Below, piece by piece: positions 1 to 39,375 of a DNA stretch of 64,000 nucleotides. The first letter of the stretch is position 1. Every line of letters starts with the position of its first letter. Source of the stretch: Arcuatula senhousia (Eukaryota; Mollusca; Bivalvia; Mytilida; Mytilidae); assembly GCA_963971305.1 (NCBI GenBank), contig OZ020307.1, forward strand, positions 14,707,501-14,771,500, read 5' to 3'. Below the pieces are notes generated by a model, which was given only the letters and a program-made list of their open reading frames with translations, did not search any database and had not been told where the DNA came from. Both the position numbers and the translations under genes were made by a program.

Positions 1-850
1 GAACAAAGGGAAAATTATTCGGATGACGATTATAGTTACTTCATTTTTTAAGTAAACAGATTTTATTCATTTTTTTTAACAATTCTTTTTTTTACGCTCA
101 TTCGCCCCACTGAACGTTCTAGAAAAACGAACTGATTAAAATAAAAATAACTTCGATCAAAACAGTTACTAGTAACAGTTGCATCAAAAGTGTCCACGTC
201 TTTTCGGGAATGGGGTCTTCTAGATCTTATATTCTGAATTCTAAACGATTTTATTCCTCAATTGAGACGTGGAACTCCGTCATATGAGGGCTTAAAAGAG
301 GTTCCATCTGTGATGTTTAATGGTTAAGAGGGGGGGGGGCTTCTTCAACTCAAAAGATATAAATACAATTTAAATATAGCTGTTCATTGACATCTTATAA
401 TTTTGCGGTGCTCGCATATAGGCAATGCCTATCTCATTTTACATTTATATGACAAAGTAAGCAGAGAGTGGTCAGTCCTCTCTTGAATATGGGATACAAT
501 GAAAATTTCATTGGCTCACAAAGTTGGAAATATTGAATCGAAAGAGGAGCACACATTGCTGTTTAACATAATATATAGTTCATAAGTAAGGGTTTTTTTT
601 TTCTATCCACCCGTGCGAATTTCAGATGATAAAGAAATATGCCTTCAGCATGACTATACTTCAACTAAATGACGCGTTATTCTTCAGCCTTCATGCTGGG
701 CCACTATGCTCCTAAAGCTGCTAGGTTGATGCCCAAGGTAACCCTGTCATCCTGCATTTCGGAATTTCTAGTGTACAACAGCAAGTTCTTGCATTGCAGT
801 GTTGAAATACAAGCCACATTTCAACGCGCAAATTATTTATCACGTTACTT
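1..850. other. AT-rich spacer, no gene seen
   Basis: No ORF with protein-like composition, splice-flanked exon or clear repeat is visible. The stretch holds homopolymer runs (poly-T near 70-90, a G9 run near 332) and short spurious frames only. Confidence 0.5.
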
Positions 851-852
851 CC

Positions 853-915
853 AAGTATCACAAATTCAGCTATATCAAAAAGATTAACATGAAAGGGTGA
901 TAAAATGAAAAAGAA
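853..915 (-). repeat. SINE A tail fragment (minus)
   Basis: The stretch resembles, in reverse orientation, the 3' tail of the SINE A family (the CATGTTCAT...ATATAGC...GAAATCGTGCTG region seen whole at 10040-10120). It is strongly diverged and has no head. Confidence 0.45.
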
Positions 916-1069
916 ACACAACACAACTGCATGTTTCGATACCATTACTGGTCTTGAATTCGCTGTAGGAGGCTAAAATGCCCGACTTTACACACAAATT
1001 GTCCAGCGACCTATAAGTATTACTCATTTCGTCACTTTCTTATGTTCATCTCCAAAATGAAGCCTTTGT

Positions 1070-1155
1070 TTTGAGAGATGCGGGGTCGTTAGGCGATAAT
1101 GCGGAAAACCGGTATGGAAAAACCATAGTGGTGGACCGTGTTGGCATATGGCAAA
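1070..1155 (+). repeat. SINE A internal fragment
   Basis: The stretch GAGAGATGCGGGGTCGT..AGGCGATAATGCGGAAAACC and the following CCATAGTGGTG..CCGTGTTGG match the middle of the SINE A copies at 9640-9710 and 22390-22460. Both flanks lack the rest of the element. Confidence 0.75.
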
Positions 1156-2725
1156 ATGAAGGCCAGTTTGCTCATTTGCATATATCCGCCATTTTGTTTC
1201 AGAATGGCCGCCATTACTTGCATTGAATAGCATCACTTCGCTGATTAATTTACAAATTACAAGCAAATTATATTGGGTGGTCAATTTCTCTTCCCTTTAA
1301 TTTCACCCTACACCGGTTTTGGGATCGTCGGCAAATTTTTGTGGAAATTCTATTATTATTGGAGGTTCCTGAAAGATTTGCAAAATTGAGGCATTTTTTT
1401 CTATTATTTCAACCAAAAAGGCTAAAATCACGAACTTTGGGATGAGTTTTTAGAGAAACTAGACTATGCAAGTCAACCTTCTTCTCTTCAAATGAAACTT
1501 CCGGACAAAATGTTCCGGCTAATATTTTTCATTTCTAATTTAAAGCTAGTATGCAGGTTCCTGAGAAGGAGCAATTTGGGTGATTTAAGTACTTTGCCAA
1601 CGCTCTTACCATTAAACAGTCGCCCAAAGTGATAAAAACAAAAAAACAAAAACTACATTCATTTTCCATCGCTGCCTTCGTCTGCTTCACCGGTGACATT
1701 CACTTCCAAAACAATATGTCACGTGATGTAAAAGGAATTTCTAAATTCTATGGGCTCACCAAAGGGAATTAACATTCTGACAAAATATATTTTAGTGTGT
1801 TTTCGTTCCATTAATTAAAATTCGACCGAATTTTTAATTACTGCATCTATGTTTTAATTTGTAGTATTTTATTAGCTAATTGGTCAAATGCTGGATGTAG
1901 AGTTTTTAGGGACCAAGCATTTATCTTGAAAAAAAAAGGGGGGGCGTCAATGAATAAAAAAAATCCGTAATAGAGGATTTCTTCCGGGGGAATTCTATAC
2001 AATGTACGTAAGTTATTTTTTTAAAGAAAAAATATCCCAGCAATTAAAAATCATGACTTTCCTTCGGAAAAGCCATCCCTTGAAGTTAGGCCCTAGCTCT
2101 ATTCATCATTTTAACTTTATGCTCTAAATTAAGGCATCAATGGGCGAGCTGACTATTCGGGTTTATAACAGGAGCATGGAAGATTTTTCTTTCGGGCCAG
2201 ATTGTTGATTAGCACATGCTTTGCCAGGCTTGAAAGTTTATTTTGTAATAGAGATCACTGATATATAATTTTGTATGCTAGATTATTTTAATATGTTAAT
2301 TTTTTTGCTGGACAAATATCACTTCCAGAATCCAGCTAACCCTTAATAGTTTTCCCGGCCTCTTACGGAATGGTCCGACGTGTCTATGACTGGGTGGTCT
2401 CCCCCCCCCCGCTCTTTTTATCCCCTTCCCCGCCCCCTTCGCATCCCGTTCACGCGGCACCATATACCATCGCCACCAGCCTTATTCACACCCGCAACCT
2501 CGGGAACATCCCGCCCTTTCAACCCTCGTTACCTCGTCCCCGTTCCCCGCCCCTCTCCACTTCCCTATTACTATTCTATCAGTAATTCGTTGAGAAGATT
2601 GTATTATTTCTTTTCTTACCGTCAATGTTTCCAGTTTCATGCTACCGAAGTGATGATATTCACGGAAACAGAAATATTCCGGTCTCAGGTGACATAACAA
2701 ATTGATATAATAGTACATGAATAAA
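1156..2725. other. Spacer, no gene seen
   Basis: The stretch holds an inverted GGCGGCCAT-type motif near 1185-1215 (CCGCCATTTTG then AATGGCCGCCATT), poly-A/G runs near 1930-1950, and a C-rich patch at 2400-2560 that opens long but low-complexity frames. I see no gene. Confidence 0.5.
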
Positions 2726-2728
2726 CTA

Positions 2729-3039
2729 GGGTTCACATCCTTTTTTGGTCGCAGAAATCCATGACTTTTCAAGGGTATTTTGATCGTTTTTCGTGACCCT
2801 TTTTTACGTAATTAGTATATGCCGAGCAAAGCGAGACCGAAAAATTTATAGAAGCTTTTACAGTCGCGACAAAAGCACTAAATGATAAATTTATGACAGG
2901 ATTTTTCTTCCAAATTGAATGGCTTTCAATGACTTTTACAGACTGTTGATATTTCATGACTTTTCAAGGGCCTGGAATTTTATTTTTCAAATTCCATGAC
3001 TCAAGTTTTCCAGGATTACATGACCAGTGTGAACCCTGA
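2729..3039. mobile_element. Small foldback/MITE with TIR AGGGTTCACA
   Basis: AGGGTTCACA at the left end and TGTGAACCCT at the right end form a perfect 10-bp terminal inverted repeat around about 310 bp. CATGACTTTTCAAGGG occurs twice inside. The flanks share ATAAAC, which may be part of a target duplication. The length and TIR style suggest a non-autonomous hAT-like MITE; the superfamily is a guess. Confidence 0.6.
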
Positions 3040-3319
3040 TAAACGCTCCATCATCAGATTTAGTGATTCTATGCCTTGTGTACCCGCTTTTTGGTCACAT
3101 GCACATTTACTTCATTTCTTTTTTTTTTTCTATATTCAGCATATCTATTTTTCAGTCGTTTTTTACTGGTATTATGTGTTTTTTATCCTTTTTAATTGTT
3201 GTTTTTGTTTGTATGTTTGATGTTTGTATTTGTCAAATTTCTATGTTAATTGTTTTTTGTCAAGGAGGGGGTCTTTCATTGACACTTTAGGATTTGGCTT
3301 GAATCATATGTATTTTCAA

Positions 3320-3540
3320 TCCAGGGCCAATTGCTAAACAGCGAGCAGCGACCGTTGGTCACATTGAAGGCTGCTGGCCGTTTTACGTTGTGGATTTTGA
3401 AATTGTTGTCAATGATGTAGGTTGTGTCGCGTACACCTATTCCACATCTCATTATCTTGTATTTTAACATTCTTGTCAATGTTGTAGGCTGTGTCGCGTA
3501 CACTTATTCCACATCTAATTATTTTATATTGATTATTCCT
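3320..3540 (+). repeat. Dispersed repeat R5 with internal duplication
   Basis: GGGCCAATTGC..AGCGAGCAGCGACC..GGTCA..TTGAAG and GTGTCGCGTACAC..TATTCCACATCT recur at 63610-63775 (+), 35215-35375 (-) and 24545-24640 (-). In this copy the GTGTCGCGTACAC block is tandemly duplicated (about 3400-3460 and 3470-3530). No coding content is seen. Confidence 0.7.
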
Positions 3541-3704
3541 CTTATTTTTTACCTTCTATGCTGCTGAAGTAATGTTACTAACCAAAATATTCATATCCCA
3601 GTCTCAGCTGACATTTTATGTCCTACCCAACTGTTTGTTTAACGCAAATTTGATTGGAAAACCCAAATTTGATTCAATCAATTAGAAGCTATAAACAAAA
3701 CATG

Positions 3705-3888
3705 AAAAAAACTTTCAAAATTTTATTTCAAAACAGAGATTTACTTAATATATGATTACAGAAATTGAAAAGTCTCCGCTAAAAGTGCATGTGATACCTA
3801 ACCAGTAAATTTTACAATTTTTAAAAACATTTTAGTATCCACAGTGACATATACCCACAGAGTCACTCACCTTTACTTTCAGATAGGT
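3705..3888 (-). other. 3' UTR region of the DDE-like gene
   Basis: A strong splice donor (AAAG|GTGAGT, last exon base 3871) lies 18 nt after the TAA at 3891-3889. An acceptor-like TTTTAG occurs near 3783, and AATAAA lies on the minus strand at 3727-3722. This fits a final intron in the 3' UTR and a poly(A) site near 3700. A stop only 18 nt before an exon junction would normally escape nonsense-mediated decay. Alternatively the stop is a degenerative mutation and the frame once continued. Confidence 0.45.
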
Positions 3889-6252
3889 TTAAACCTTAGG
3901 ATTTATTTGTTTTGCTCTTAATGTTTGAGTGACTCTAATTTTACCACCACCTATCCAGAATTTATTGTCTTTTTTACTATATTTCCTTTTGATCCTGCTA
4001 CATTTCAATGCTAATAATCTCTTTCTGTATCTTACTCTAATTGCTTCAACTGTGGCGTCATGTTTATTCGATTTTCTATGATATATCATTTTTATATCAT
4101 CGTTGAGTTTCTCAACCCCTTGCCCAGAAAATATCTTAAGACTTTTATACTTCTTTAAAATGAAGGGTACATGGTACACCATTATATGCATATATGGAGT
4201 TATATTTTTTCTGTCATAACCCTCTAGTTCGCTACCCAGGGAGATGAACTCATTGACAAATGATTTAGCTTCTTGGTGAAAATTAGAAATTTTTTCTTCA
4301 GAAGGATACATGTCATTCATGGTTTCATATAATTTGCCAAAAGTTTGCCAAAGACCAATTACTTTTAACTTGTTTCTTACACAGTTCACTGACATAAGAC
4401 TATCAGGCATGAGTTTTAGAAGTTTCTTCATGTCCGATCCCGTGAGGCTTGTCCATTCAAGATTTTTAAATGAGTCCCCAAAACCGTCTTTATTACGCGA
4501 TTCCCAAATTTGAAAATGTACTCCACAGTTATTAAAACACTGTACTAGATCATTCCTATTTTTGTTTTTACACTGGGCATTTTTTCTTCCTAAATTGGTC
4601 TTCTGGTCAAGCCTCACAGAATCTTCGATGAGATTTCTTATTAAAACATCAAGGATTCTCATTAAGAGATGTAACTCATCCACAACAACATGTTGTAAAT
4701 CGATGTCAACAAGAGGTAAATGTAGGCAACCAAAATTATTGGTTTTCTTTCGACAAAGCAATTTCATTTCCGACAAAGATCTTTTCAGATTTTCAGAATA
4801 GAAATTTTCTTCCTTTGACATGTCTCCTCTGTTTGATTTTTCTATTTTACAATAAAGACATGAATATTTGGCATTCGCAGCGTTTAGGCCCAGAGCTGTA
4901 AGCAGAAATTTCATGTCCCCACCTAGAAAAAATTCTAATAGGAAACGTTTTCCATTTGTACATTCAAATTCTATTTCTCCGTTCGTACCGGTGCCTAAAA
5001 TATCATTCATTTCTGAAAATATGTCTGCAAATGATTCCGAAATACAAATGTAATTTTCCGAAGCGTTCACAATACCTATTGTGTGTTGTTCATGACATGA
5101 AAAAATAGGATTGTCACCTAACAAAGCTAACGAAAATACCAAGAAACTTGAAACTCTCGACATTTTGGCGCCATCAGCTGCAAACTTCAATTTTACAACC
5201 CCGTTTTCGTCCACATCTTTGAGATTTAAAAGTAAATGATTAATAGTGTCACGTACACTCAACTGAGCTTCAGGAGATTCACCAGGGGTTTTAGAAATAG
5301 TACAAAAACTATTTATCTCATCCCTACACTGTTTGATTAAGTATGATTTAATCATATTTTCATTTTGCAGTGTTAATTCATGGTACGCACCGTCCGAGAT
5401 ACCAAATGAATCGAGTATGAATAAAAGCTTTTTTACTTTTTCTTTCTCTTCGTCTGGTAATTTCTCGAAACCAGAATTTTGTTTCGAAATCAGATCATAA
5501 GTTTTACCGTTTTCGTCCTGTGCGGTAATAGCAGTAAATTTGACACCAAATGATTTGGCAAACCAAAGTGCCTTTTCAACCCGTTCCGTCAGCATACACA
5601 CCTTTTTCTTAGATTGTGTTTTTTTACATTTCCCTATCTGTTTACCACGATTAATAAATCGTCCTGTCAAAAACTCTATTTTACTATTAAGCTCTTCGTT
5701 TGTTTTTGTATAGATAGAAAGTAGATTTTCAAAATTTTGTTTTTCTTTCTGAACTTTATTAATACGTGTTTGTAAATTTGTTATTTCTTGGTAAAGTTCG
5801 TAGATACGAGTATTTAGCTCTCGCTCTAAGCGGGTTCTCTCTTGAATTTCTATATCCCTTACAGTGCACACTTCATCTGTCAAGAGAATAACTTTTACGT
5901 TTTCCCTAAGATAGTTATATTTTTTTCTACCTTTTAGCTTTTTGAACTTTGCAACTGTTTCTGAACTAATCTTTGATAAGTGATTTTCTAATCGCACTGC
6001 ATTTGACTTTAAAGGCAGCGCATTAATTGGCATCAAGTCATTAATGAAAGTAATATAATTGAAATGGAACTTTTGATGCATCTCGTGCAATATTTTAATT
6101 AATTCTCTACTTAAAGTAAGCTGACCAACAAGTTTACTTGTGTTGTTTGGATTCAGATTTCCTAAATTTAAACCATGTTGACTTAAACCTGTTTCAACAC
6201 CAATGTATTGTTCTAATTTAATCTCACCAATTTGGGAAAGATAGTCACTCAT
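3889..6252 (-). CDS. RAG1/Transib-like DDE nuclease-type protein, 787 aa
   Basis: This is the longest ORF in the window, uninterrupted and protein-like. Residues about 134-200 are a coiled coil, followed by a basic stretch (202-218). The C-terminal two thirds has the order expected of an RNase H-fold DDE nuclease with a zinc insertion: KFAADGAKMSR with D360, FLGGDMKFLL (D446), YSCLYCK with C465 and C468, DIDLQHVVVDELHLL (516-530), YHVPFI (H694, P696), and GQGVEKLNDD with E714 as the likely last acid. RAG1 and Transib show a similar order (DG, CxxC, H-x-P, terminal E), so this is a resemblance of layout, not a proven homology. I recall similar multi-copy proteins from cnidarians and other invertebrates but cannot name the family. 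The exon opens at 6260 behind TTTCTTTTCAG; the ATG at 6252 has A at -3. No TIRs were found around it, so transposon versus domesticated host gene is open. Confidence 0.7.
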   Translation of the reverse strand: MSDYLSQIGEIKLEQYIGVETGLSQHGLNLGNLNPNNTSKLVGQLTLSRELIKILHEMHQKFHFNYITFINDLMPINALPLKSNAVRLENHLSKISSETVAKFKKLKGRKKYNYLRENVKVILLTDEVCTVRDIEIQERTRLERELNTRIYELYQEITNLQTRINKVQKEKQNFENLLSIYTKTNEELNSKIEFLTGRFINRGKQIGKCKKTQSKKKVCMLTERVEKALWFAKSFGVKFTAITAQDENGKTYDLISKQNSGFEKLPDEEKEKVKKLLFILDSFGISDGAYHELTLQNENMIKSYLIKQCRDEINSFCTISKTPGESPEAQLSVRDTINHLLLNLKDVDENGVVKLKFAADGAKMSRVSSFLVFSLALLGDNPIFSCHEQHTIGIVNASENYICISESFADIFSEMNDILGTGTNGEIEFECTNGKRFLLEFFLGGDMKFLLTALGLNAANAKYSCLYCKIEKSNRGDMSKEENFYSENLKRSLSEMKLLCRKKTNNFGCLHLPLVDIDLQHVVVDELHLLMRILDVLIRNLIEDSVRLDQKTNLGRKNAQCKNKNRNDLVQCFNNCGVHFQIWESRNKDGFGDSFKNLEWTSLTGSDMKKLLKLMPDSLMSVNCVRNKLKVIGLWQTFGKLYETMNDMYPSEEKISNFHQEAKSFVNEFISLGSELEGYDRKNITPYMHIMVYHVPFILKKYKSLKIFSGQGVEKLNDDIKMIYHRKSNKHDATVEAIRVRYRKRLLALKCSRIKRKYSKKDNKFWIGGGKIRVTQTLRAKQINPKV

Positions 6253-6260
6253 GCTTCTTC

Positions 6261-6417
6261 CTGAAAAGAAATTAAATCAAAAATAGATAATCAAAGTGCA
6301 TATTAAATATACATAACAGTTTCTAACAAGTAAAATGTACATAATTCAGTTAGTAGATAATGTGAAAGTAACAAATTGAACAAGTAATTAATTGTTAATA
6401 GTGACGTTACATCTCAC
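6261..6417 (-). other. Short intron 2 of the chromodomain/DDE locus
   Basis: A 157-bp AT-rich intron lies between donor ACA|GTGAGA (exon end 6418) and acceptor TTTCTTTTCAG|GAAG (exon start 6260). Splicing exon 2 (phase 0) to this acceptor reads GAA GAA GCA TGA, so the chromodomain frame ends after three codons. That TGA overlaps the ATG of the 787-aa ORF. All nearby AG alternatives (after GAAG, after GAAGAAG) also hit a stop. Confidence 0.55.
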
Positions 6418-6903
6418 TGTGCAAATTTCCACCCTCCAAACTTCAATGGGTTTGCGTTTCCCCTTCACAAGTTTGTTGTTTTCTTCTCTAAAATACTTCT
6501 TCGACCACCTAAGAACAGGTTTAATTGAGATAGGGAAGTCAATTTTTCTTCCCTCTCCTGACTCTGTATAAATGAAGGTATACCAGTCTTTAGGCAAGAG
6601 CAAATTATCAAAATCATTCAAGTCTAACTTTCTTGCTCCATTTGGGAACGTTTCACCATGATATCCAAATACGGCTCTGAACAAGGTATGTGTCTCGTTA
6701 ATGTAAAACTGTTGGTCTAGTCTTTTAGACAATCTTCGGTGAATGTGCTCCAGGAACAAGTCACCCAACGACTGTAGGTCCTTTTCTGAAGGCAAAGACG
6801 GCTCGAAAAACTCATCGAGAACTGCACATGGGAGATGTGTTGCCGGTTCCCACGTGCAGTCAAAGGAGGAGTATGCTTCCCATTTCACTAAATACTCTGA
6901 AAC
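6418..6903 (-). CDS. Chromodomain protein, exon 2
   Basis: The exon encodes 162 codons and starts behind TTTTTTTCAG. It opens with VSEYLVKWEAYSSFDCTWEP, the second half of a chromodomain (beta-strands 2-3 and the C-terminal helix up to LDEFFEP). The N-terminal strand is missing here and is supplied by the exon at 9124-8969, in phase 0. The tryptophan and tyrosine of the methyl-lysine cage (W60 and Y63 of the joined protein) are present. After the chromodomain the exon continues about 125 residues with no domain I recognise, including DLFLEHIHRRLSKRLDQQF and a basic NNKLVKGKRKP. If intron 2 were retained the frame would stop at 6388. It probably acts in the nucleus by reading methylated histone H3; that is inference from the fold. 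Confidence 0.85.
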
Positions 6904-6980
6904 CTGAAAAAAAGAAAAAAAACCCATTGAAAATGAAAGATACTCCATTTTTAAAACTTTAATATATACATAATACATTA

Positions 6981-7322
6981 TTTAGGTCTAAATTAAAATA
7001 TTGTTTGTTTGTTGTTTAATAGCCGACCCTGATTTTTCAAGGTGGGTAGTAGGTCGGTCGGTCAAAATATTTTATTTTATTTGTTCCAAAAAAAATTACT
7101 GGTCATTTTTGAGTACATGTATTGTGAGTAATGACATGACATGTACATGAAAGATTTTATTTTGATGTAACAACAAACAGGGTATATGGTTGAACCTTTG
7201 ACAAAAAATAATAAAATAATTTTTTTCTAGATTTTCCCAATAAATTTTTTTCAAGTAGGGTGCATTTTTGTAGGGTCGGTAGGCTGACGGCAAACAAACA
7301 ATTATACTTAAATTTAGGCCTT
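6981..7322. mobile_element. Foldback element, TTAGGCC...TTGTTTGTTTG arms
   Basis: The left arm (6981-7030: TTAGGTCTAAATT.. ATTGTTTGTTTG.. GACCCT) is complementary, with gaps, to the right arm (7271-7322: AGGGTCGG.. CAAACAAACAA.. AATTTAGGCCTTA). The arms are about 50 bp around a roughly 240-bp AT-rich centre. The arm layout (GGCC, TGTTTGTTT, CCTACC) resembles the element at 7806-8043, so both probably belong to one family. Confidence 0.65.
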
Positions 7323-7510
7323 ACAAAACAATTTCATATATTGCTCAGTTGACAAGTGTGTGTAACAGCTTAACAATGGTTTTCTAGGGTTTTTTATTAT
7401 CACGGTTCGCTCCATCATTATTTTTTATTCAATTCGTCAAAAATTCTATTATTTTTCTATCTTTTCGTTTTTCTAAAGCTTTCTCATTGAAAAAAAAACA
7501 TTTTAGAATG

Positions 7511-7785
7511 TTAGGGAGTAACCATTTAACTTTAAAGGGGGGCTTGGATTTAAAAAAAACTGAGTTTGATTTTTTGAGAAAAAAAAAATTTCCAGATGGA
7601 GGGTGGTGTTGAAAAAAAAATATTCTGAAAGGGGCTTTCTGCCATACAAACTACATGTATTGCTCTTGTTGAAAAAGAATATTTGTCGCAACGCAGAAAA
7701 ACACTAAAAAAAATTCTGATCAAACTGATTAAAAAAAAAACCAAGCCTCCCCTTTCAAATTAAATGGTCGTTCCCTTATCATAAA
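7511..7785. mobile_element. P-family foldback MITE, copy 1
   Basis: The left arm AGGGAGTAACCATTTAAC..GGGGGGCTTGG pairs with the right arm CCAAGCC..CCCCTTTCAAATTAAATGG..CGTTCCCT. The arms are about 35 bp with some mismatches. The centre is almost pure A/T with repeated AATATTTTT-type blocks. The same arm consensus (GACCATTTAACTT.AAAGGGGGG) recurs at 8348, 11922, 26427, 44758 and 51569/52328. Confidence 0.75.
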
Positions 7786-7805
7786 ACTGTTTGTTCCATG
7801 AAATT

Positions 7806-8043
7806 TATAAGGCCAAAAAAATATATGTCTGTTTCCTGCTTCCCTACCTACCCTATTTTTTTTGCCCTACCCTAAAGTTTTTATTGGCATTTTGGAACAA
7901 GCACCGTTAAAGCTGGGATTGCTTCCCCATTGACTCAATGTAAAATAATTTTGTAAAAAAAATAATTTTCCTACCTACGGTACCTACCCTAATTTTCAAG
8001 AGTAGGAAGCAGGAAACAAACATATATTTTGTTTTGGCCTAAG
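7806..8043. mobile_element. Foldback element, GGCC...TGTTTCCTGCTTCC arms
   Basis: The left arm (AAGGCCAAAA..TATATGTCTGTTTCCTGCTTCC) and the right arm (GGAAGCAGGAAACAAACATATATTTTG..TTGGCCTAA) are inverted copies of about 35 bp, and CCTACCTACC/GGTAGG-type stretches extend the pairing. No ORF is present. Confidence 0.7.
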
Positions 8044-8347
8044 AAACAAACTTTAAACAATTTTTGTTCCAAGAAAGTAATTAATGAAACAATCTTGATT
8101 TTTGTTCGTTTCATTTAAAATCCCCTTGAAGAACCCCAACTTCTGATATCGATTTTGAGGCCTTCTTTCACGTCCGCGTTCATAACGTTGATTGTCAATA
8201 TAGCTTTATTTTGACACATCTAGGTCAGATTTTTTGGCAAAATAGGACGATACTTTTTTTTTAAATTTCAAAAAAAAAAAAAAAATAAAACAAAATACAT
8301 CATTGGAAACTGAAATATTAGGAAATATTGAATTTGGAATAGAGGAA

Positions 8348-8769
8348 GACCATTCGATTTTGAGGGGGTGGGGGTTGGAAGATTTTGGAAATAAATGTTA
8401 CAGCTCGAAATGTGACATAGCATCTCTCGGGTTTGTTTTTCGCATATGGCTGGGAAGGGGTATGCAAAGCGACCGAAAGTTTGTCTGTAAAGGAGCAGGG
8501 TTCGGAACCTCTAGAAGAAAACACCCGTAATTTTTAGGACTAGGTGCCACCCCCCCCCGGGGGGGGGGGGAGGTGCAAAGCTATAAAAGGTAAGATATTT
8601 TTTAATAGGGGACGTTTTATTTTGTGTATATCTTTTGTTTTTTTTATTTGTTTTGTTTCGTCTGAAAGCGGCGAAAAATAAATCTGACCCGAAAAATCAG
8701 TTTTGAAGTTAAATCTGTCCCGACAAAATCTTCCAAGCCACCCCCTCCCCCCTAAAAATCGAATGGTAC
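8348..8769. mobile_element. P-related foldback MITE in intron 1
   Basis: The left arm (8348-8390: GACCATTCGATTTTGAGGGGG..TTGGAAGATTTT) and the right arm (8722-8769: AAAATCTTCCAAGCC..CCCC..AAAATCGAATGGTAC) form imperfect arms of 40 bp or more. A C9-G10 palindrome sits near the centre (about 8551-8571). Arm order (ACCATT, GATTTT, G-run, TTGGA) follows the P family, with a longer centre. Confidence 0.7.
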
Positions 8770-8968
8770 TTTAAAAAGGGGGGTACATGGGGGGTCATGT
8801 AATGCCACTGATTTGCCGTGTAAAACAACAATTTAATCTCATAGACAAATCACTGTTATAACATTCTATAGCCTATAATAGAAATATGACATATAATGCA
8901 TTGGACTGCGGCATTCCTTTAAACTTTAGAATGCCATGTGCTGGCCGATTTGTATCGATCAAACTTAC

Positions 8969-9124
8969 CCCGGACATCTTTCGTTCTGCAATAATTCTCT
9001 CCACTTGATATAAATCCTCATAAACTTCACGAACACTGGTACTCCTCTTTGTTATGTGCCGCAGCTCTGGGCCCCGAATCATAGATTTATAACTGATGCT
9101 TGGTCTTTTTCTAAGACTATACAT
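8969..9124 (-). CDS. Chromodomain protein, exon 1 (start)
   Basis: Exon 1 has 52 codons, from ATG at 9124-9122 (context AAGAAAATGT) to donor GGG|GTAAGT. It begins MYSLRKRPSISYK, a basic lead, and ends LYQVERIIAERKMSG, the first strand of a chromodomain. Joined in phase 0 to exon 2, it gives YQVERIIAERKMSG then VSEYLVKW, which aligns gap-free with HP1-type chromodomains. The first aromatic-cage residue is Y39, matching W60 and Y63 from exon 2, so methyl-lysine binding is plausible. An upstream frame could extend to a TTG at 9154, but the ATG is the better start. The region just upstream holds CRE and ETS sites. Predicted protein: about 217 aa if splicing to 6260 is right. Confidence 0.82.
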
Positions 9125-9159
9125 TTTCTTGCTACTTACAAATGTGTGTTTCAACGTCG

Positions 9160-9299
9160 AATGATTCCGGAAGTCAATTTGACTGTAAATTTATCTACTG
9201 TGACGTCATTAACGTCATGTATAATTCATTACCTCATGAATAAAAATCTACTGTGACGTCATTAACGTCATGAATAATTCATTACCTCATGAATAAAAA
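9160..9299 (-). promoter_or_regulatory. Putative promoter: ETS site and duplicated CRE unit
   Basis: Reading upstream of the chromodomain ATG (9124) there is an ETS-type CCGGAAGT at 9167-9174. Then come two tandem copies of a 53-bp unit (9194-9246, 9247-9299), each with a perfect CRE palindrome TGACGTCA (9201-9208, 9254-9261) plus a second ACGTCA (9212-9217, 9265-9270). No TATA box is obvious. The sites lie about 45-150 nt from the start codon, where TATA-less promoters usually carry ETS and CREB/ATF sites. The function is inferred from position. Confidence 0.6.
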
Positions 9300-9320
9300 A
9301 GTGACCCTGATTTTGCCATA

Positions 9321-9476
9321 TGGGAAAAATGTCACGTTCCTCACACGTTTAAGAACCCTGCTGCAGGTCTCGGTAAGAGTAGGACCCGTAGGATCCCCAT
9401 GCAGGAGGCTAAATGTCCCGTCCCTACCCATCACTTCTTTCTCCAGTGGCAGTCTAAACTCTCCTACCCGATTGGC
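9321..9476 (+). mobile_element. SINE A outer copy, left part (5' truncated)
   Basis: This matches the SINE A centre (TGGGAAAAATGTCACGTTCCTC.. to CTACCCGATTGG). It is interrupted by a younger full-length SINE A at 9477-9992. The 14-bp CCTACCCGATTGGC at 9463-9476 is repeated at 9993-10006, as expected of a target-site duplication. Confidence 0.88.
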
Positions 9477-9992
9477 ACCCGTGCGGGTTCCGGGTGGCAA
9501 ATAGGCCCGCAGCAGCGCTAAGCTTGTCGGTAAAAGTCCACTAAAGAGCGCCCAGAAACCACACATCGGGTCAGGCCGCTTTGCCCAAAAAGCGACTGGG
9601 ATGTGTGCCCCAGGTGGTTGAATGGGGTGGCCCTGACATCGAGAGATGCGGGGTCGTCAGGCGATAATGCGGAAAACCGGACCGCAAACCATAGTGGTGC
9701 ACCGTGTTGGGAAAAATGTCACGTTCCTCGCACGTTAAAGAACCCTGCTGCAGGTCTCGGTAAGAGTAGGACCCGTAGGATCCCCATGCAGGAGGCTAAA
9801 TTTCCCGTCCCTGCCCATCACTCCTTTTTCCAGTGGCAGTCAAAACTCTTCTACCCGATTGGCCTTGTGTCCCCATTTCCTCCACTTCATCATCATTTTA
9901 TGTTCATTGTATCATCAATTTCATGTTCATCTCCCGGATATAGCCGAAATCGTGCTGCTTGGGAGTAAAGCAATAACTAACTAACTAACTAA
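9477..9992 (+). mobile_element. SINE A, full-length copy nested in another SINE A
   Basis: It starts ACCCGTGCGGGTTCCGGGTGG and ends GGGAGTAAAGCAATAACTAACTAAC, with a short (TAAC)n tail. It is about 516 bp, flanked by a perfect 14-bp duplication. The open frame beginning MCPRWLNG is conserved between copies only because the copies are similar; it has no sign of being a gene. No RT is encoded, so mobilisation must have been in trans. Confidence 0.88.
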
Positions 9993-16215: not shown

Positions 16216-16695
16216 AACCCGTGCGGGTTCCGGGTGGCAAATATGCCCGTAGCAGCGCTAAGCTTGTCGGTAAAAATCCACTAAAGAGCGCCCAGGCCGC
16301 TTAACCCACAAAGCGACTGGGGTGTGTGCCCCAGGTGGTTGAATGGGGCAGCCCTGACATCGAAAGATGCGGGGTCGTCAGGCGATAATGCGGAAAACCT
16401 GACCGCAAACCATAGTGGTGCACCGTGTTGGGAAAAATGTCACGTTCCTCGCACGTTAAAGAACACTGCTGCAGGTCTCGGTAAGAGAAGGACCCGTAGG
16501 ATCCTCATGCAGGAAGCTAAATTTCTCGTCCTTACCCATCACTCCTTTTTCCAGTGGCAGTCAAAACTCTCCTACCCGATTGGCCTTGTGTCCCCATTTC
16601 CTCCACTTCATCATCATTTCATGTTCATTGTTTCACCACTTTCATGTTCATCTCCCGGATATAACCGAAATCGTGCTTGGGAGTAAAGCAAACTA
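16216..16695 (+). mobile_element. SINE A, near full-length, with TSD
   Basis: It runs from AACCCGTGCGGGTTCC to GGGAGTAAAGCAAACT. A 13-bp duplication ACTCTTTAAATAA (16203-16215 and 16696-16708) flanks it. There are small deletions relative to the other copies (the CAGAAACCTGACATCGGGT stretch is missing). Confidence 0.9.
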
Positions 16696-22227: not shown

Positions 22228-22735
22228 ACCCGTGCGGGTTCCGGGTGGCGAAAAGGCCCGCAGCAGCGCTAAGCTTGTCGGTAAAAGTCCACTAAAGAGC
22301 GCTCAGAAACCTGACATTGGGTCAGGCCGCTTTGCCCACAAAGCGACTGGGATGTGTGCCCCAGGTGGTTGAATGGGGCAGCCCTGACATCGAGAGATGC
22401 GGGGTCGTCAGGCGATAATGCGGAAAACCTGACCGCAAACCATAGTGGTGCACCGTGTTGGGAAAAATGTCACGTTCCTCGCACGTTAAAGAACCCTGCT
22501 GCAGGTCTCGGTAAGAGTAGGACCCGTAGGATCCCCATGCAGGAGGCTAAATTTTCCGTCCCTACCCATCACCCCTTTTTCCTGTGACAGTCAAAACTCT
22601 CCTACCCGATTGGCCTTGTGTCCCCATTTCCTCCACTTCATCATCATTTCATGTTCATTGTATCACCACTTTCATGTTCATCTCCCGGATATAGCCGAAA
22701 TCGTGCTGCTTGGGAGTAAAGCAATAACTAACTAA
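22228..22735 (+). mobile_element. SINE A, full-length, with 14-bp TSD
   Basis: It runs from ACCCGTGCGGGTTCCGGGTGG to GCAATAACTAACTAA and is flanked exactly by CTGAAAAAAAGCGA at 22214-22227 and 22736-22749. It is among the least diverged copies and so is a good consensus source. Confidence 0.92.
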
Positions 22736-36573: not shown

Positions 36574-37917
36574 AGAGGCTCCCAGGACCCTGAATCGCTC
36601 ACCTGGTCTTGATGTTGACCCTATAGTTTTGTAGAGCTAAATGAGCTGAACATTAAAGCAAGCAACAGCTTTTCTCTACCTGCAATAGTTTTCATTCTAT
36701 AGGCCAAAAACACCATTTTTCACCTATAACCCCTATAAGGAGTCATCTGACAACTTCGACCCTATGAAGACTTTTGTAGAGCTAAATGAGCTGAACATTT
36801 AAGCAAGCAACAGCTAATCTCTATCTGCAATAGTTTTCATTCTGTAGGCCAAAAACATGAAAAATGGCTATTTTTCAGGGGCCGTAACCCCTATAAATGG
36901 TCATCTGACAACTTCAACCCTATGGAGAATTTTGTAAAGCTAAATGAGCTGAACATTTAAGCAAGCAACAGCTAATCTCTATCTGCAATAGTTTTCATTC
37001 TGTAGGACAAAAACATGAAAAATCGCTATTTTTCAGGGGCCGTAACCCCTATAAGGGGTCATCTGACAACTTCGACCCTATGGAGAATTTTGTAGAGCTC
37101 AATGAGCTGAACATTTAAGCAAGCAACAGCTAATCTCAATGTGCAATAGTTTTCATTCTGTAGGCCAAAAACATAAAAAAAATGCCATTTTTCAGGGGCC
37201 GTAACCCCTATAAGGGGTTATCTGACAACTTCGATCCTATGGAGACTTTTGTAGAGTTAAATGAGCTGAACATTTAAGCAAGCAACAGCTAATCTCTATC
37301 TGCAATAGTTTTCATTCTGTAGGCCAAAAACATGAAAAATGGCTATTTTTCACCTTTAAGGGGCTGTAACCCCTATAAGGGGTCATCTGACAACTTCGAC
37401 CCTATGGAGACTTTTGTAGAGTTAAATGAGCTGAACATTTAAGCAAGCAACAGCTAATCTCTATCTGCAATAGTTTTCATTCTGTAGGCCAAAAACATGA
37501 AAAAATGCTATTTTTCACCTTTAAGGGGCCGTAACCCCTATAAGGGGTCATCTGACAACTTTGACCAAATGGAGACTTTTGTAGAGCTTTTGATGCTGAA
37601 TCAGGAGCGTGGCCTCAGATTTCCTCTATCTCTTATACTTTTTGATTTATAAGCCAAAAACAGTAGTCTGACCCCCCTAGTCTATTTTTAGTAACGGCAG
37701 CCATGTTTTTTAACGGATTAAAAATCAAAACACAAGTTTGGTGCAGGACACCCTAAGGATCATTCATACCAAGTTTCATTAAATTCTGTTTGGTAGTTTC
37801 AGAGGAGAAGATTTTTGAAAATTGTTAACAGACGACGACAGACGACGACGACAGACGACGACGACGGACGCCAAGTGATGGTAATAGCTCACATGGACCT
37901 TTGGTCCAGGTGAGCTA
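36574..37917 (+). mobile_element. F1 core-repeat element, complete copy
   Basis: The 5' end is AGAGGCTCCCAGGACCCTG then AATCGCTCACCTGG. Six core units follow (see next entry), then a unique part with GGCAGCCATGTTTTTTAAC, (GAC)n at 37829-37868 and CCAAGTGATGG. The 3' end is a hairpin: TAGCTCAC A TGGACC TTT GGTCCA G GTGAGCTA (37885-37917). There is no ORF. Palindromic ends, core tandem repeats and a short microsatellite are the layout I recall for bivalve pearl/Helitron-like non-autonomous elements; the assignment is inference. Confidence 0.82.
36636..37586 (+). repeat. Core tandem array of F1, six units of 145-165 bp
   Basis: Unit starts (GAGCTAAATGAGCTGAAC) fall at about 36636, 36781, 36939, 37097, 37256 and 37421, with the last unit ending near 37586. 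Spacings are 145, 158, 158, 159, 165 and 165. Each unit holds AAGCAAGCAACAGCTAATCT, GCAATAGTTTTCATTCTGTA, CCGTAACCCCTATAAGGGG and ATCTGACAACTTCGACCC. Homogeneity suggests recent unit turnover. Confidence 0.9.
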
Positions 37918-38539: not shown

Positions 38540-39375
38540 AAGAGGCACCAATGGGGCATTCGAATACCGGTAAACACGAACAAGAAAAGCACGGAGAAAC
38601 ACATTCAACCGAACGGAAATTAGCAAAGCGTATCAAGTCGTATCAAGAGTGCAATCAGGTACTCCCGAAGAGTAAGCGGTTCTTATCTGCTATTTTGCTA
38701 ATTTCTATTCCAGTGTGTCCGGGTTCCGGGTGGCGAATAGGCCCGCAGCAGCGCTAAGCTTGTCGGTAAAAGTCCACTAAAGAGCGCTAAGAAACCTGAC
38801 ATCGGGTCAGACCGCTTTGCCCACAAAGCGACTGGGATGTGTGCCCCAGGTGGTTGAATGGGGCAGCCGTGACATCGAGAGATGCGGGGTCGTCAGGCGA
38901 TAATGCGGAAAACCTGACCGCAAACCATAGTGGTGCACCGTGTTGGGAAAAATGTCACGTTCCTCGCACGTTAAAGAACCCTGCTGCAGGTCTCGGTAAG
39001 AGTAGGACCCGTAGGATCCCTATGCATGAGGCTAACTTTCCTGTCCCTACCCATCATTCCTATTTCCAGTGGCAAACTCTCCTACCCGATTGGCCGTGTG
39101 TCCCCATTTCCTCCACTTCATCATCATTTCATGTTCATTGTATCACCACTTTCATGTTCATCTCCCGGATAAAACCGAAATCGTGCTGCTTGGGAGTAAA
39201 GCAATAACTAACTAACCAGTGTGTCGCATCCGATAAAGGAAGACAATACAAAAGTCTACGACAAACTAACATCTGCACTCATCTGAGAGACAGAAATCCC
39301 ATATTTGTTCACGAGTGCACGGTGTCTACCGTAAAATTAATTGAGTGGAGACAGAATAACCCTGTGTTAGCAATA
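38540..39375 (-). repeat. RT-element 3' end (minus), split by a SINE A
   Basis: AGAGGCACCAATGGGGCATTCG..ACACGAACAAGAAAAGCACG (38540-38719) continues after the SINE as GTGTGTCGCATCCGATAAAGG..GACAAACTAACATCTGCACTC..CACGGTGTCTACCGTAAAATT (39217-39375). It is the antisense of 56240-56590, where the same text encodes the RT C-terminus and tail. Confidence 0.8.
38720..39216 (+). mobile_element. SINE A inserted in RT-element tail, 9-bp TSD
   Basis: It starts at GGGTTCCGGGTGGCGAATAGG (a few head bases are missing or masked by the target) and ends GCAATAACTAACTAAC. CAGTGTGTC occurs at 38711-38719 and 39217-39225. The insertion point is defined to the base by the uninterrupted sister copy at 56355 (minus). 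Confidence 0.9.

Follow-up and report, generated by a model that had tools for sequence, protein, structure and literature searches.

A DNA transposon of Arcuatula senhousia that carries a RAG1-like transposase gene and a chromodomain gene

Results

We analyzed a 64,000-nucleotide stretch of the genome of the bivalve Arcuatula senhousia (GenBank assembly GCA_963971305.1, contig OZ020307.1, positions 14,707,501 to 14,771,500 of the forward strand). This whole stretch is called the window here, and all coordinates refer to it. A terminal-inverted-repeat DNA transposon occupies positions 1145 to 9322 on the minus strand (8178 bp). It encloses two genes, one encoding a chromodomain protein and the other a RAG1-like DDE transposase. 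A preliminary description of this DNA had reported both open reading frames (ORFs), but it had not noticed the element around them. The 5' terminal inverted repeat is CATATGGCAAAAT (9310 to 9322, minus strand). It matches the other end of the window copy, where the same sequence lies inverted (1145 to 1157, plus strand), at 13 of 13 bases.

We searched the rest of the genome for related loci. The search covered 1.04 Gb, and its match counts are lower bounds. Four further loci carry this transposase. Three are full length at 100% protein identity (rounded), and the fourth has 99% identity over transposase residues 1 to 664 plus a separate C-terminal match. The window copy is 99.63 to 99.69% identical to these four loci over approximately 8.1 kb. 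When the copies were aligned to it, similarity stopped at both termini and the flanks were unrelated. The other four copies end in CAAATGG at the 3' side, with one mismatch, and one of them (C12) has 722 additional bases in the leader. Indels aside, the five copies, which we call family A, vary at 30 sites, of which the intron has 12, exon 2 has 3, the intercistronic gap 1, the transposase ORF 6, and the 3' part 8. The chromodomain exons are intact in all five and the transposase ORF in four. With copies more than 99.6% identical and most transposase ORFs intact, the locus is a mobile element that looks young. Intact ORFs would also be expected of a domesticated pair of host genes. However, the five near-identical dispersed copies, the inverted termini, and the empty sites described below refute that explanation for the window copy, and we give it practically no credence.

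Ten further loci were read in detail. They fall into families B (one copy), D (six), E (two), and F (one), whose transposases are 33 to 50% identical to that of family A.

The transposase ORF (3889 to 6252, minus strand) has 787 codons plus a stop and is intact from 6252 to 3892, as first described. Its likeness to RAG1 rests on the fold, with approximately 13% identity in the aligned structure. We compared its key residues in an alignment of 20 members. The proposed first catalytic aspartate, D360 (ADG; 5173 to 5175), lies at the end of the strand formed by residues 352 to 363 and is D in all 19 rows that have a residue there. We take it to correspond to RAG1 D600. The proposed second aspartate, D446 (GGDMKF; 4915 to 4917), is D in 19 of 20 rows. 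HMMER aligned it with GYDEK of RAG1, within a stretch of only 2.7 bits. A C(2)C zinc motif, C465 and C468 (4849 to 4860), is conserved in 19 of 19 and 19 of 20 rows, respectively, and aligns with CTLC of RAG1L and RAG1. An H(4)H zinc motif, H689 and H694 (TPYMHIMVYHVP; 4171 to 4188), has H at both positions in all 14 rows and aligns with TNYLHKTLAHVP of RAG1. The proposed catalytic glutamate, E714 (GQGVEKLND; 4111 to 4113), is E in 14 of 14 rows and aligns with EGNESGN of RAG1. All of these features are on the minus strand. The N-terminal part has a long helix (residues 131 to 195) and only three cysteines in residues 1 to 240. Relatives of this transposase occur in cnidarians, molluscs, and hemichordates. 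The transposases of families D, E, and F and database proteins P0007, P0009, and P0011 have a longer C-terminal tail without counterpart in A and B, and 2 of the 20 aligned members have weak Pfam SAP matches.

The chromodomain gene lies upstream on the same strand. Exon 1 (8969 to 9124; 156 nt, 52 codons) carries the aromatic-cage residue Y39 and ends at the donor GGG/GTAAGT (slashes mark splice boundaries). Intron 1 (6904 to 8968) has a donor score of 6.42 and an acceptor score of 10.74. Exon 2 (6388 to 6903) begins after the acceptor TTTTTTTCAG/GTT and runs to its own TAA (6390 to 6388); its C-terminal region is conserved, and it carries cage residues W60 and Y63. The two exons had been said to join in phase 0 into a chromodomain with all three cage aromatics, and the splice sites and the Pfam search agree: the joined protein scores 53.0 bits against PF00385 (Chromo), for which the curated cut-off is 25.1. 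In relatives where both exons were found, their matches are likewise separated. In one representative of each of the families A, B, D, E, and F, a phase-0 GT that could end exon 1 lies no more than one residue from the aligned place; in B, D, E, and F this end was chosen by eye. The genome search gave no exon 1 match in family B or in the family D copy on C9, and exon 1 of B was read later. The cage tyrosine and tryptophan are kept in all five families, which also have Y at the third position; the two database relatives have F there. The cage is predicted to bind a methylated histone lysine. The nearest named matches obtained for the element are P0020 of Mytilus edulis and P0005 of Pinctada imbricata, which point to a bivalve.

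The pairing of a histone-reader-type protein with a RAG1-like DDE nuclease, which the preliminary description singled out, is conserved rather than accidental. All paired families come from this one genome. The exon 2 protein has at least 34 matches in it, and among the matches listed, 29 of the 34 have a same-strand transposase match 0 to 5 kb downstream. Chromodomain exon 2 also precedes the transposase in each of the 10 loci read in detail. In family F, a further exon holds the C-terminal part. The trees of the two genes share one topology, ((A,B),E,(D,F)), out of 15 possible, with one split modestly supported. This match suggests that the two genes have long been inherited together.

The window copy was inserted within an interspersed host repeat, and a single C flanks it on each side (left copy at 9323, right copy at 1144). 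The four closest uninterrupted host-repeat copies in the window are shorter by one C at the junction. Therefore, the insertion duplicated 1 bp. Among the matches listed, the base is missing at the junction in four of seven empty sites (89.5 to 93.6% identity). Two of the remaining three are more diverged, with the gap one base earlier, and one (85%) has no gap there. The same comparison, with the same scope, placed the gap of the C14 copy at the junction in six of seven sites and two bases on in the other. For the C12 copy it was at the junction in three of seven and within two bases in two, and two were too diverged to read. Both copies agree with a 1-bp duplication, and the single flanking bases match in all five family A copies. 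Among the matches listed, no alignment spanned the junction for C5b, C6, D11b, or E13, and the one row for E14 was its own element end.

The ends of family D are clear (CATAGCCAAGAAT / CATATCCAAGAAT), and the four copies for which both are known lack a flanking repeat. Its apparent empty sites are contiguous at the junction over approximately 120 nt at 88% (D11a), approximately 155 nt at 79% (D7a), and only 28 nt (D7b). The target duplication in D is thus 0 bp, as read from three apparent empty sites, one of them on 28 aligned nt. Family E ends in CATGTGCAAGAAT / CATACGCAAGAAT and also lacks a flanking repeat, as known from flanks alone without an empty site. A longer target duplication was rejected: both ends are known for four D and two E copies, and the flanks of these six show none.

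CAT stands directly outside the terminal ATG at the 3' end of D7b, D11a, and E14, three of these six copies, and makes an ATGCAT palindrome at the junction. The apparent empty sites of D7b and D11a also carry CAT, so it may be a target preference. The host repeat occurs in the window at 9335 to 9840, 16285 to 16686, 22392 to 22560, and 38800 to 39207, and one copy hosts the element. At three of these four places it contains ORFs of 124 to 144 amino acids that look spurious. A tandem repeat array at 36727 to 37588 has the same unit as the array that hosts the C14 copy elsewhere in the genome.

The two ORFs of family A are separated by an intercistronic gap of 135 nt (6253 to 6387, minus strand), which contains three ATGs and an acceptor-like TTTTCAG before 6260. 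The preliminary description had the chromodomain frame spliced into this acceptor, so that it would read GAA GAA GCA TGA and its stop would overlap the transposase ATG (ATGA). The acceptor exists, 8 nt before that ATG, and the phase-0 reading is as described. However, the overlap requires a splice from 6418 in exon 2 to 6260, and splicing at 6418 was not confirmed. The donor there (ACA/GTGAGA) scores 1.07, whereas the top two donors in the region reach 8.06 and 6.42. The frame stays open for nine more codons, to the TAA of exon 2. The Mytilus edulis homologue P0020 runs through the exon 2 stretch beyond 6418 to a similar end. For these reasons, the 6418 splice is probably not used in the chromodomain mRNA. 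Nor is the overlap a conserved device. It is confined to families A and B, because their second transposase codon is the serine codon AGT; families D, E, and F use ATGTCN, with which it cannot form.

If a single mRNA carried exon 1, exon 2, and the transposase, the second protein could be made by termination-reinitiation. The two genes have the same strand and a constant order, with short gaps from chromodomain stop to transposase ATG (135, 97, 22, 43, and 63 nt in A, B, D, E, and F, respectively), and the gaps of D and E are without ATG. On the other side, there are three, three, and two ATGs in the gaps of A, B, and F. A long upstream ORF disfavors reinitiation, and in family A the chromodomain ORF has 171 codons in exon 2 alone. 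The ATGA itself needs the unsupported splice and is impossible in D, E, and F. We regard a dicistronic mRNA as rather unlikely; it concerns expression only and would be compatible with a targeting role of the chromodomain protein. We tentatively favor separately spliced mRNAs, in which exon 1 is probably joined to exon 2 for the reader and a leader to 6260 for the transposase.

Another possibility raised in the preliminary description is a single ancestral fusion protein in which a frameshift of one base has since arisen. The proximity and shared orientation of the two ORFs would fit a fusion. However, their frame offset varies among the families (0, 1, 1, 1, and 0 in A, B, D, E, and F). The chromodomain ORFs end at their own stops, those of B, D, and E within a few residues of the family A end. 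The transposase ORFs of all five families start with their own MSD methionine. Five of 19 homologous transposases begin with MSD in the same way (the others have another methionine or are N-terminally incomplete), and none of the 19 showed a chromodomain in front. The suggested search for fused proteins was run with a chromodomain-plus-transposase query limited to residues 1 to 223, and none of its 364 candidates matched at an E value of ≤1. We consider an ancestral fusion very improbable. As judged from these sequences, two separate proteins is the right reading.

Several other features of the element were recorded. Next to the 5' end is a tandem direct repeat with a unit of approximately 53 bp, head to tail (9193 to 9299, minus strand), seen from offset self-matches and from the sequence. 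It contains TGACGTCA, which we take to be similar to a cAMP response element, and could serve as a promoter or as transposase-binding sites. A direct repeat of approximately 67 bp (87% alike) at 3394 to 3530, in the noncoding 3' part, is present in all four other copies compared. A strong donor-like site, AAG/GTGAGT (3871 to 3872, minus strand; score 8.06, the best of the region), lies 18 nt past the transposase stop, where the feature in the preliminary description began. It suggests an intron in the 3' untranslated region. There is no ORF longer than 115 amino acids in 1145 to 3870, and eight of the ORFs there had no credible match when scanned with Pfam. A third gene in these 2.7 kb was rejected, because only short ORFs are present and a translated comparison of the families revealed nothing convincingly conserved beyond the two genes. 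A 23-residue match between the 3' parts of A and D is weak. A 133-bp query from the 5' end gave eight genome matches, three beyond the five copies. One (L037; C6:44711800-44713500, with the 5'-end match at C6:44713217) keeps its 5' end intact, with 1.5 kb or more of the element at 99.3%. Among the matches listed it has no transposase match, and it is truncated or internally deleted.

Discussion

We consider it likely that this element is a young two-gene, cut-and-paste DNA transposon, comprising a RAG1-fold transposase and a separate chromodomain protein that is most probably a targeting or regulatory subunit. The transposase would recognize the CAWATGGCAAAAT inverted repeats, synapse the two ends, and excise the element. 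It would then join the element to its target with a stagger of 1 bp (family A) or none (family D). We propose these steps because of the fold, the conserved residues, and the insertion footprints. The chromodomain protein may bind a methylated histone and so position the transposase or keep the element's own chromatin permissive. It could thereby steer integration to methylated chromatin, the role that the RAG2 PHD finger has for RAG1, with another domain. This chromatin half is suggested by the domain, its cage, the conserved pairing, and the analogy with RAG2.

Alternatively, the chromodomain protein might be a regulator instead of a targeting subunit; it could oppose the silencing of the element's promoter by the host, for instance, or compete with HP1. 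The conserved cage and the conserved association require chromatin binding only and not contact with the transposase. The present evidence does not separate the two roles. However, accessory proteins of other transposons, such as RAG2 and the Myb/SANT protein of Harbinger, usually work with the transposase, and we find a purely regulatory role somewhat unlikely.

A number of observations weigh against a two-gene transposon with a chromodomain subunit. The subunit role would be assigned by analogy. Five of the 34 chromodomain matches have no transposase partner within 5 kb; for two of them, a same-strand transposase match lies 9 to 10 kb downstream. Of 45 merged transposase loci, 17 are unpaired. 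Fifteen of these span less than 900 nt. The two longer ones are C1574 and C2:20571204, and 9.9 kb upstream of the second there is a chromodomain match. The PDB profile matches are weak when each aligned stretch is taken singly (best i-Evalue, 0.016). The model of the C-terminal half of the reader, built from three sequences, had a predicted confidence (pLDDT) of 38.6 and was useless for a fold search. By eye, all five families seemed to share a convincing splice acceptor before the transposase ATG, but it was no better than chance: the fractions of equal-length random stretches with an acceptor as good were 0.15, 0.38, 0.18, 0.65, and 0.30 for A, B, D, E, and F. In one of the five family A copies, the transposase ORF has lost 1 nt, and eight of the nine coding differences among the copies alter an amino acid. 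The latter has the look of neutral decay after recent insertion and not of selection on the inserted copies.

Among the closest parallels are vertebrate RAG1-RAG2 and the RAG-like transposons (RAGL/ProtoRAG/TransibSU). Like our element, they have a RAG1-fold DDE enzyme that bears C2/H2 zinc motifs, inverted termini beginning with CA, and a histone-reader-type domain on a second protein. However, the reader here is a chromodomain protein, whereas theirs has kelch and PHD domains. The genes are in tandem on one strand, whereas those of RAG-like elements are convergent. No convergent RAG2L gene with kelch and PHD domains was found among eight scanned ORFs of the 3' part, a scan that a finely split gene could escape. 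The termini (CATATGG/CAAATGG in A, CATAGCC/CATATCC in D, and CATGTGC/CATACGC in E) are not of the CACWRTG type of RAG-like elements and Transib. RAG2 couples V(D)J recombination to marked chromatin through its PHD finger, and Transib has one gene, in contrast to the two here. According to the sections consulted of one report, RAG and Transib make 5-bp target duplications, compared with 1 bp (A) or 0 bp (D) here, and the PHD of RAG2 reads H3K4 methylation, with sea urchin RAG2L and mouse RAG2 as the cases described (PMC7204232).

The CMCT clade (EnSpm/CACTA, Mirage, Chapaev, Transib, Plavaka, ESTA, and Lanisha) was compared by description only, from the sections consulted of PMC12730594. As described there, its members have C(2)C and H(3-4)H motifs between the second D and the last E, like C465-x2-C468 and H689-x4-H694 between D446 and E714, and 5'-CA..TG-3' termini. 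In contrast to our 0 to 1 bp, they make 2- to 5-bp target duplications, and those sections mention no chromodomain gene for the clade (PMC12730594). The CAC..GTG termini and 3-bp duplication given there for EnSpm/CACTA differ from those of our element (PMC12730594). Chapaev is defined, in the part consulted of another report, by an N-terminal Chapa zinc finger (PMC4411706), which was not found here, where residues 1 to 240 have three cysteines. Harbinger-related transposons with 0-bp duplications, such as Spy, are cited in the same sections of PMC12730594. Spy-type (PHIS) elements and family D both lack a target duplication, but their transposases probably belong to different groups. No Harbinger-type structure was recognized among the Foldseek or VIA matches listed, which leaves room for one.

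Chromoviruses also use a chromodomain to find chromatin. However, theirs is fused to the integrase of a long terminal repeat (LTR) retrotransposon, whereas here it would be a separate protein of a DNA transposon. Among the papers listed in a search of the open-access literature, with Repbase and subscription papers outside its scope, none described a chromodomain gene in a RAG1-like DNA transposon, as judged from titles and the openings of abstracts. It is possible, and we suggest it tentatively, that these families represent an undescribed RAG1-fold lineage at the superfamily level, with a methyl-lysine reader of the chromodomain type as its second subunit and almost no target duplication. 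If so, a RAG1-fold transposase can work with a stagger as small as 0 to 1 bp. Because related enzymes leave 2 to 5 bp, the geometry of strand transfer must differ.

The arrangement echoes the RAG1/RAG2 pair of the human immune system, in which the reader is a separate protein beside the cutting enzyme. Within one genome, no fewer than five diverged families pair a RAG1-fold transposase with a chromodomain, a type of reader unlike that of RAG2. If the lineage is as we suggest, RAG1-like nucleases were paired with histone readers on more than one occasion. Should the reader guide or license the enzyme, then a link between this nuclease fold and chromatin would have evolved more than once and could be studied in elements that look young.

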